Source of the DNA: Phycisphaerales bacterium
Lineage (GTDB): Bacteria; Planctomycetota; Phycisphaerae; Phycisphaerales; UBA1924
Direction: 5' to 3'
DNA length: 64,000 nucleotides
Assembly (NCBI GenBank): GCA_023382935.1
Contig: JAHDXL010000001.1
Coordinates: 283,003-347,002, forward strand
Shown: positions 17,394-19,375 of the stretch, piece by piece
Layout: every line of letters starts with the position of its first letter
Numbering within the stretch: the stretch's first letter is position 1
Position numbers and translations under genes: made by a program
Notes under the pieces: generated by a model
The model's database searches: none
What the model was told of the DNA's origin: nothing
What the model saw: only the letters and a program-made list of their open reading frames with translations

Positions 17394-17419
17394 GTGTTGC
17401 ATTGTGGGGCAAAGTGGGA
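17394..17419 (+). promoter_or_regulatory. MraZ operator: three boxes at 10-bp spacing
   Basis: GTGTTG (17394), GTGGGG (17404) and GTGGGA (17414) repeat at exactly 10 bp. This matches the known MraZ operator, direct TGGGN repeats with 5-nt spacers. They fill the spacer of the mraZ promoter, so MraZ binding should block its own transcription. Confidence 0.75.
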
Positions 17420-17456: not shown

Positions 17457-17915
17457 ATGCTGTTTACCGGCCAGGCGGAGTTGACCGTCGACGCCAAGCA
17501 GCGTCTCGCGCTTCCCGCCAAGTTTCGCTCGCGGTGGGATCCGGAGCGGGACGGTCCGACGTGGTATTGCGTCCCCTGGCCCCACGAGGGGGTGCTGCGT
17601 CTGTATACGGAACGGCGTTTCGAGCAGATGGCCGAACGCCAGGAAGAGTCACTCACACCCGGACAGGATGTGGCGGATCTGGAAGCCACCCTGTTCGGGT
17701 ATACGGAACAACTGGACGTCGACTCGGCGTCGCGGATTCGACTCCCGGCCTGGCACATCGACTTGGTCAAACTCCCTCGGGAGGTTGTGCTGGTCGGTGC
17801 GCGCAACCGACTGGAGATTCGCGCTCGCGAAGCATGGGTCGGGCGTCGAGAGGATCGGTTCAACGAGTTGCGGCAGTTGGTCGCACGGCTGGAAGCACAC
17901 AAGGGCGGACAGTGA
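17457..17915 (+). CDS. mraZ: Transcriptional regulator MraZ
   Basis: The product is 152 residues with two SpoVT/AbrB-like repeats: residues 1-55 (MLFTGQAELTVDAKQRLALP) and about 75-130 (QLDVDSASRIRLPAWHIDL). MraZ forms dodecameric rings that bind repeats upstream of the dcw cluster. The start ATG 17457 has GGAGG 9 nt upstream. Unusually, rsmH, ftsL and ftsI do not follow. The next 450 nt are non-coding and structured. The operator in its own promoter suggests autoregulation persists. Confidence 0.95.
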   Translation: MLFTGQAELTVDAKQRLALPAKFRSRWDPERDGPTWYCVPWPHEGVLRLYTERRFEQMAERQEESLTPGQDVADLEATLFGYTEQLDVDSASRIRLPAWHIDLVKLPREVVLVGARNRLEIRAREAWVGRREDRFNELRQLVARLEAHKGGQ

Positions 17916-17939
17916 CGCCCCGCGACGGAAGAGGAGAGA

Positions 17940-18220
17940 TCCCGGGTCGACTTTGACACCGGGACGCGTCCGCCACGGGCTTGGAAGGGCCTGGCAGGAC
18001 GATTGATTCGAGATGTGTGACCGGCGCACGGATCTGGCGCCGGAGCGGTTGATCGCCAAGGATGGCGAGTTGGGGAATGGAATCCCCCGGCCGCCGACAA
18101 GCAAGGCGAAGTCCCGTCGGTCCTCATGGATCGTGAGGTCAATGCGCAAGGACGCGCATCCGACTCCCGGCTTCGCGAAGCGTTGCGTTCGTTCGACAGG
18201 ATGTCGCACGAACGCTTTTC
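17940..18220 (+). ncRNA. Candidate CsrA/RsmA-binding small RNA: nine hairpins, seven with GGA in the loop
   Basis: Nothing is coded between mraZ and the aldo/keto reductase gene, but the plus strand folds by eye into consecutive stem-loops. Their stems are 17940-17964, 17972-17995, 18021-18043, 18053-18068, 18072-18087, 18122-18138, 18142-18159, 18170-18181 and 18185-18215. GGA lies in the loop of seven: loops TTGGAAGG, ACGGATCTG, AAGGAT, ATGGAA, TGGATCG, AAGGAC and GGA. One (CAAGGATG) matches the CsrA consensus core CARGGAUG. The last hairpin is followed by TTTT and serves as terminator. This is the architecture of CsrB/RsmZ sponge RNAs. No separate promoter was found; it may be cut from the mraZ 3' UTR. 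Confidence 0.5.
18185..18220 (+). terminator. Intrinsic terminator after mraZ / candidate small RNA
   Basis: GCGTTCGT (18185-18192) pairs with ACGAACGC (18208-18215). After one T-C mismatch CGACA pairs with TGTCG, and the loop is GGA. TTTTC follows directly. It is a strong 8+5 bp stem. Confidence 0.8.
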
Positions 18221-18370
18221 AACTTGCCCACCAACAGGATCGGCTCGCACGATCTCCCGATCGCCGATCCGCACCCGGCCCGAGCGGCATCCCACCGCCG
18301 GGCTCTTTTCATTGCTCAAGCGGATGGATGTCGTCCTCTTGCATGTGGCGTTGCGCTATATGCTGGGCGC

Positions 18371-19375
18371 ATGAAGGAGCACACTTCGGCGTGGACGCGG
18401 CGGACGTTTCTCTCCGCCTCGGCGGGGGCGGCGCTGGCGGGGCTGGGCGGGCTCGGCCGCCTTTGGCAGGACTCCTCCGCAGCCGCGGGTCAATCGGCCG
18501 CCTTGCCGACGGCCGCACTGGGGCGAACCGGACGGGTACTGCCGCGGCTGGGGCTGGGATGTTTCCCGGTGGGCGGGCTGGCCAACGAGGACGATGCGGC
18601 CGCGGTGCTCGATGCGGCGCTGAGTGCGGGCGTGCGTTACCTCGACACGGCGCCGTCATACCACGCGGGCCGGTCGGAGTCGCGCGTGGGTTCGGCCATC
18701 AAGCGCTGGACCGAGGCCCACGGACCCGAGGCGCGGAACCAGTTGTACGTGGCGACCAAGACGCTCGATCGCACGGCCGACGGGGCGCGGCGCGAACTCG
18801 AGGCCTCGCTGAAGCGACTTGGCATCGACTGCGTGGACTGCATCCAGTGCCACGAGGTGCACGACGACTGGGAGAGTCTGTTCGCAAAGGACGGCGCGCT
18901 CGCAGGTCTGGAGAAGGCGCGCGACGAGGGACTGGCCCGGCACATCGGTATCACCTGCCACCGCGACCCGAGTTACGCCATCAGCGCAATCAGGCGGTTC
19001 CCGTTTGTGACGGCCCTGGTGCCGATCAATCCGATCGACGTGCAGCACCACTCGTTCGTGCGTGGGTTCCTGCCATTTGCGGCCGAGAACGGGGTGGCGG
19101 TGGTCGCGATGAAAGTGTTTGGCGGCGGATTCCTTCTCACCACGCGCGACGAGAAGGGCGAGCGCGTGTTCACGCCGGGAGATCTGCTGCGGTATGCGTT
19201 GGCGCAGCCGGGCGTGGCGGTGTGCGTTCCGGGATGCGAGACGCTGGAGCACGTGCGCGTCGATGCGGTGGCGGTGCGGGGTTTCGAGCAGCCGGACGCG
19301 GCGTGGCTTGAGGGGGTGGAAGCCAAGGCGGGCAGGCACGAGGGGAAGAGCACAGAGTGGTACAAGGACGGGTGA
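18371..19375 (+). CDS. Aldo/keto reductase family protein with Tat signal
   Basis: The product is 334 residues. The N-terminus has a twin-arginine signal (WTRRTFLSASAGAALAG), so it is exported folded. The AKR barrel shows LGLGCFPVGGL, the catalytic Asp/Tyr in YLDTAPSYHAGRSE, Lys in VATKTLDR and His in IQCHEVHDDWE. Substrate and electron donor are unknown, because NADPH is absent outside the cytoplasm and such Tat-AKRs may be vestigial or use another cofactor. ATG 18371 has no clear Shine-Dalgarno. Confidence 0.88.
   Translation: MKEHTSAWTRRTFLSASAGAALAGLGGLGRLWQDSSAAAGQSAALPTAALGRTGRVLPRLGLGCFPVGGLANEDDAAAVLDAALSAGVRYLDTAPSYHAGRSESRVGSAIKRWTEAHGPEARNQLYVATKTLDRTADGARRELEASLKRLGIDCVDCIQCHEVHDDWESLFAKDGALAGLEKARDEGLARHIGITCHRDPSYAISAIRRFPFVTALVPINPIDVQHHSFVRGFLPFAAENGVAVVAMKVFGGGFLLTTRDEKGERVFTPGDLLRYALAQPGVAVCVPGCETLEHVRVDAVAVRGFEQPDAAWLEGVEAKAGRHEGKSTEWYKDG

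Follow-up and report, generated by a model that had tools for sequence, protein, structure and literature searches.

An array of CsrA-type hairpins conserved downstream of mraZ in Phycisphaerae, a candidate CsrA-titrating RNA element

The 300-400 nt that follow mraZ in a Phycisphaerales genome of 3.7 Mb hold an array of hairpins with GGA in their loops, and we consider it probable, at roughly three chances in four (about 0.77), that this stretch is a CsrA-titrating RNA element transcribed with mraZ. The locus studied lies on the plus strand at 17940-18220 of a 64,000-nt window, i.e., the whole stretch of DNA that was analysed, which corresponds to positions 283003-347002 of contig C1. The hairpins, the specificity of their loops, their conservation, strand and position, the co-occurrence with csrA and the pattern of terminators were all computed directly.

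In the window, mraZ (a transcriptional regulator of the division/cell-wall cluster; Pfam PF02381, 6.7e-16) occupies positions 17457-17915 of the plus strand and has the array as its 3' neighbour. The gene downstream of the array, an aldo/keto reductase according to Pfam, starts at 18371. The interval between the two genes is non-coding, and its alignment with relatives contains indels, several of them of 5 nt, that break any reading frame. The first hairpin begins a mere 25 nt or so past the mraZ stop codon. Directly after mraZ and just 5' of this hairpin, a purine-rich block, GAAGAGGAGAGATCCC (17926-17943, plus strand), forms near-invariant alignment columns in four relatives; it may serve as a processing site or belong to the array.

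The initial annotation had described seven hairpins with a GGA loop, and all of them are present as local hairpins on the plus strand. The array opens with a hairpin whose loop lacks GGA (hairpin 1, 17940-17964; present in the MFE fold, with 85% of the cells paired over four relatives). It is followed by hairpin 2 (17967-18001, loop GGAA at 17983-17986), also in the MFE fold, with 90.6% of the cells paired and one pair changed on both sides, and by hairpin 3 (18021-18043), in which a perfect 7-bp stem with two pairs changed on both sides closes the loop ACGGATCTG at 18028-18036. Three hairpins carry a strict CsrA-type hexaloop, as identified by the motif scan described below and in the four-genome alignment: hairpin 4 (18053-18068, loop AAGGAT at 18058-18063), hairpin 5 (18072-18087, loop ATGGAA at 18077-18082) and hairpin 7 (18142-18159, loop AAGGAC at 18148-18153). 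The last of these loops reads AAGGAC, AGGGAC, ACGGAA and ACGGAT in the four genomes, i.e., the A and the GGA are constant and the variable positions vary. Hairpin 6 (18122-18138, loop TGGATCG at 18127-18133) has a 5-bp stem with two pairs changed on both sides. Only three of the seven GGA loops of the window are canonical ANGGAN hexaloops, and only 4-5 of the seven are present simultaneously in the single best global fold because of competing long-range pairings.

The last hairpin (18185-18215; 8+5 bp, loop GGA at 18199-18201, four pairs changed on both sides), which is followed by TTTTC, had been read as the end of the transcript. The hairpin, its GGA loop and the T-run are indeed there, but with a T-run (CTTTTC) this short, one of two terminator searches picks the hairpin up and the other rejects it, which leaves a weak terminator candidate. 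A second terminator-like hairpin on the same strand (about 18274-18309; CCCGGC..GCCGGG, then CTCTTTT) is the likelier transcript end: its position is kept in the relatives G002 and G001, and in G001 it consists of a perfect GC-rich stem with TTTTT.

What is improbable in this interval is the placement of GGA in loops, not the number of GGA triplets, which is mildly raised (11 against 8.5 expected). The global MFE fold of 17940-18220 (281 nt) places five GGA triplets in hairpin loops, a count that dinucleotide-preserving shuffles of the interval do not match (mean of 0.54 GGA loops, with none of 600 reaching five) and that is reached by none of the 912 stretches of equal length taken from both strands of the window. 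The folding energy of the interval is 3.6 sd below that of the shuffles, i.e., the fold is more stable. Our strict CsrA-type motif is an ANGGAN hexaloop, the loop of RsmE-RNA structures (PMC7652899), on a stem of 4 bp or more. The 864 kb of the genome that were scanned on both strands (about 23% of it) contain 57 such motifs, and the mraZ 3' locus, with three, is the sole site in those 864 kb with at least two of them per 300 nt. A looser count, which accepts any GGA loop of 3-8 nt on a stem of 4 bp or more, discriminates weakly because GC-rich shuffles yield about 1.8 per region; the strict motif separates sharply.

The secondary structure of the array is conserved with covariation in close relatives, a set of only four sequences (the window and three relatives) compared over the eight-hairpin structure. 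Standard pairs fill 85.2% of the cells of this structure, a share that drops to 35-43% if the partner column is slid. Nine pairs are changed on both sides, compared with 3.6 in shuffles.

Beyond these close relatives, hairpins and GGA loops are kept across the order and in most families of the class. Folded by MFE in 55 genomes from the family and order of the window, the 300 nt 3' of mraZ present 160 GGA loops, compared with 28.4 in shuffles (the largest shuffled sum being 38) and with five on the reverse strand. The strict motif occurs 107 times in sense and never in antisense 3' of mraZ in 63 genomes of the order, mostly in the first 300 nt or so past the stop codon: successive bins of 100 nt contain 28, 41, 32, 3, 3, 0 and 1 motifs, and then none up to 1400 nt. 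About 16% of the order genomes are without any strict motif. When all six-nt loops closed by stems of at least 5 bp are considered in this region of the order, half of them (64 of 128) are ANGGAN, with C as the commonest last base, and the next commonest central triplet has seven occurrences. The same loop accounts for 0 of 154 hexaloops on the reverse strand and 4 of 111 in the mraZ coding sequence. This dominance of ANGGAN implies that what is conserved is the CsrA loop specifically and not hairpins generally. Between genera, the positions of the sites shift and the stems differ.

With its definition fixed, the strict motif was then sought in additional genomes from the class and the phylum. 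Among the 147 csrA-bearing genomes of the class, we found 184 motifs in sense and one in antisense, and 102 genomes have at least one. This includes 49 of the 84 csrA-bearing genomes that belong to the class and lie outside the order, over a third of which are without a motif. Families f9, f14 and f15 are rich in motifs, and three f9 genomes have the same anatomy in a cleaner form, with many ANGGA hairpins followed by a long GC-rich stem and TTTTTTT; in family f8, csrA is present and the array absent. In other classes of the phylum, a single motif was found in only 3 of 40 genomes, and the array was not found beyond the class. The motif is present in 104 of the 160 csrA-bearing genomes and in 2 of the 34 csrA-less ones (these genomes are related and not independent). 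None of the six genomes of family f16 (G070, G080, G088, G101, G108, G114) has a csrA match or a motif; this is the clearest case of apparent csrA loss, and the only clear loss at the family level in the sample. Genome G078 (87% complete) has no csrA match, yet three motifs.

The gene that follows the array differs among genomes (it can encode RsmH, CsrA, an aldo/keto reductase or a laccase-like protein) and mraZ is constant, which favours an action of the array in trans. In families f9, f15, f20, f22 and f23, the next gene is often rsmH, placing the array between mraZ and rsmH, and this interval is probably the ancestral place of the array.

The genome of the window encodes three CsrA-family genes. 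Beside the first, csrA1, lie fliW and a gene of the flagellin family; csrA2, located elsewhere in the genome, carries an insertion of four residues; and the third is a weak match (L003:1477-1695), divergent, barely above the Pfam cut-off and with unusual neighbours. The RNA-binding arginine R44 is invariant in all three when they are set against what we take to be the E. coli CsrA sequence. Among relatives, csrA is found in 61 of 61 and fliW in 60 of 61. In family f2, a gene of the csrA2 type directly follows the array in all six genomes, in either orientation. Genome G024, in which csrA1 and fliW are absent and csrA2 and the array are kept, fits the idea that the array serves CsrA2 only, unlike family f5, where a csrA1-type gene is the sole csrA in most genomes and where the arrays are weaker and several are kept. 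As a general rule, an array for CsrA2 only is ruled out by the several f5 genomes that keep arrays with csrA1-type genes alone. In this family (L039, L044, L046, L050, L054, L057), all six genomes examined also have an ANGGAN hairpin some 25-31 nt 5' of the mraZ match, and since this is a CsrA-type hairpin just 5' of mraZ, it is plausible that CsrA also controls mraZ (its translation) there. In another class of the phylum, the csrA family is unusually expanded in genomes of family f48 (G218, G241, G261, G278, G295), with 9-17 genes per genome.

The array is most simply read as the 3' UTR of the mraZ mRNA. In 39 of 62 order genomes (5.4 expected), a terminator-like hairpin and its T-rich tail are found 150-500 nt past the mraZ stop, with a median end 359 nt after the stop, and just one of the 62 has such a hairpin in the interval from mraZ to the array. 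Because terminators follow the array and almost never precede it, a single transcript made of mraZ and a hairpin-rich 3' UTR is the simplest arrangement, which favours the origin from the mraZ 3' UTR suggested by the initial annotation. The window's own terminator signals are weak candidates only, and scans of the window for sigma-70 promoters (which cover planctomycete promoters poorly) and for terminators found none. The GacA-type palindrome TGTAAG-N6-CTTACA was not found near the locus and is rarer than chance in the window. Upstream of mraZ, there is a MraZ-type double box of the form TGGG-N6-TGGG, TGGGGCAAAGTGGGA (17405-17419, plus strand), which is likely to be the autoregulatory operator of mraZ; 35 of the 63 genomes of the order have this pattern in the 200 nt 5' of mraZ, against 0.9 expected.

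We propose that transcription would begin at a promoter controlled by MraZ and pass mraZ without meeting a terminator, adding a 3' UTR of about 4-8 hairpins with loops that present A-N-G-G-A, and would halt at a GC-rich hairpin with a T-run. Each loop would accommodate one of the binding surfaces of a CsrA dimer. Several dimers, of CsrA1 and/or CsrA2, would then be held by the RNA, either as an intact mRNA tail or as a cleaved stable fragment, and the control exerted by CsrA on other mRNAs would be relieved in trans. We infer this sponge role, with its binding, titration, cotranscription with mraZ and coupling of MraZ to Csr, from sequence patterns, and titration in trans is favoured by the presence of several CsrA-type sites per RNA, by the changes of downstream gene among genomes and by the association with csrA. 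A broader proposal, to which we give even odds, is that a class-wide RNA antagonist of CsrA in Phycisphaerae is the mraZ 3' UTR, and that MraZ autoregulation may set the level of free CsrA, tying a division/cell-wall regulator to Csr alongside FliW.

The main rival to titration is regulation in cis, in which CsrA bound to the array would control the mraZ mRNA (its stability or its 3' end) or the passage into the downstream gene, e.g., rsmH, with no titration. The array does lie between mraZ and rsmH in many families of the class, and the f5 hairpins in front of mraZ would suit such a control. However, several sites per RNA exceed the usual need in cis, the array is constant while the downstream gene changes, and a terminator-like hairpin parts the array from the following gene in most genomes of the order. 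We thus consider it unlikely that regulation in cis is the whole explanation, although it could hold together with titration. An independent sRNA gene, transcribed from a promoter of its own within mraZ or immediately 3' of it and in other respects a CsrA sponge of the CsrB/RsmZ type, is a variant of the titrating element proposed here, and our confidences in the two overlap. The anatomy of the array, hairpins and then a terminator, is CsrB-like, and a planctomycete promoter might well be missed by the scan. Still, the space between the mraZ stop and the first hairpin is short, no promoter-like site was recognised and no GacA-type palindrome lies nearby, which makes this variant possible but rather doubtful.

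Two further explanations concern the hairpins themselves. They might serve another protein that binds GGA loops or the general stability of the 3' end, for hairpins at this position are commonly stabilising elements, but the loop A-N-GGA(C) is conserved while the stems vary, and the array is mostly missing from genomes that are csrA-less; we regard this explanation as very improbable. The high GC content lifts the numbers of stems and of GGA triplets, so that the array could have been an artefact of composition, given how little the raw GGA count exceeds expectation. This is refuted by the controls, as in dozens of genomes neither dinucleotide shuffles nor the opposite strand, the coding sequence of mraZ or flanks of 1 kb reproduce the motif. 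Of the computational grounds for refutation that the initial annotation had listed (hairpins and GGA loops not conserved in relatives, no csrA, as many GGA loops in shuffles), each was examined and none held.

A CsrA-titrating array of this kind resembles the gamma-proteobacterial CsrB/CsrC and RsmX/RsmY/RsmZ RNAs in its several GGA loops, its ANGGAN hexaloops, the terminator at its end and the presence of csrA in the genome. Unlike them, it occurs in another phylum, is attached to the 3' end of mraZ instead of being a stand-alone gene, is without a GacA-type site found and coexists with FliW. A search of Rfam at gathering and relaxed thresholds returned no Csr/Rsm sRNA family, only unrelated matches with E values of 6 or worse. 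By analogy, the array would work like CsrB/RsmZ. The TwoAYGGAY RNA motif shares with it the GGA in hairpin loops. That motif was reported from gamma-proteobacteria, Clostridiales and the human gut (PMC2864571); the report neither extends to planctomycetes nor connects the motif with mraZ. The decRNAs of E. coli, stable pieces excised from the mraZ-rsmH-ftsL-ftsI mRNA (PMC6156199), come from the same operon as the mraZ array, but lie within coding sequence and are not CsrA arrays. We found no description of the array in the literature on mraZ and CsrA or on planctomycete CsrA sRNAs, in a search that covered mainly papers outside subscription journals.

The FliW-CsrA system of Bacillus subtilis and Campylobacter jejuni is shared here in that fliW stands beside csrA1 and is nearly universal among the relatives. 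FliW, however, is a protein antagonist, whereas the mraZ array is an RNA locus unlinked to fliW. The antagonism of CsrA by sRNAs and by FliW has been termed mutually exclusive (review PMC7366521). Antagonistic sRNAs have been tied mainly to gamma-proteobacteria, while Planctomycetes have been listed among the likely users of FliW, with the existence of inhibitory sRNAs in FliW species left open (PMC4682653). Dozens of genera are found here to carry both fliW and a conserved CsrA-type array, so that this exclusivity becomes directly testable. If the proposed titration is true, the widespread and poorly understood MraZ would gain a link to global post-transcriptional control.

In the named collection, the nearest relatives of the window are two MAGs, Planctomycetota bacterium J022 and one mislabelled Cyanobacteria, and a Phycisphaeraceae MAG has a more distant mraZ match (52% identity). 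The mislabelled entry is the public MAG 'Cyanobacteria bacterium CYA N2_1' (L123, RHKP01000004.1). Its label is evidently wrong, because its mraZ is 96% identical to that of the window and it corresponds to G002, of the window's genus.
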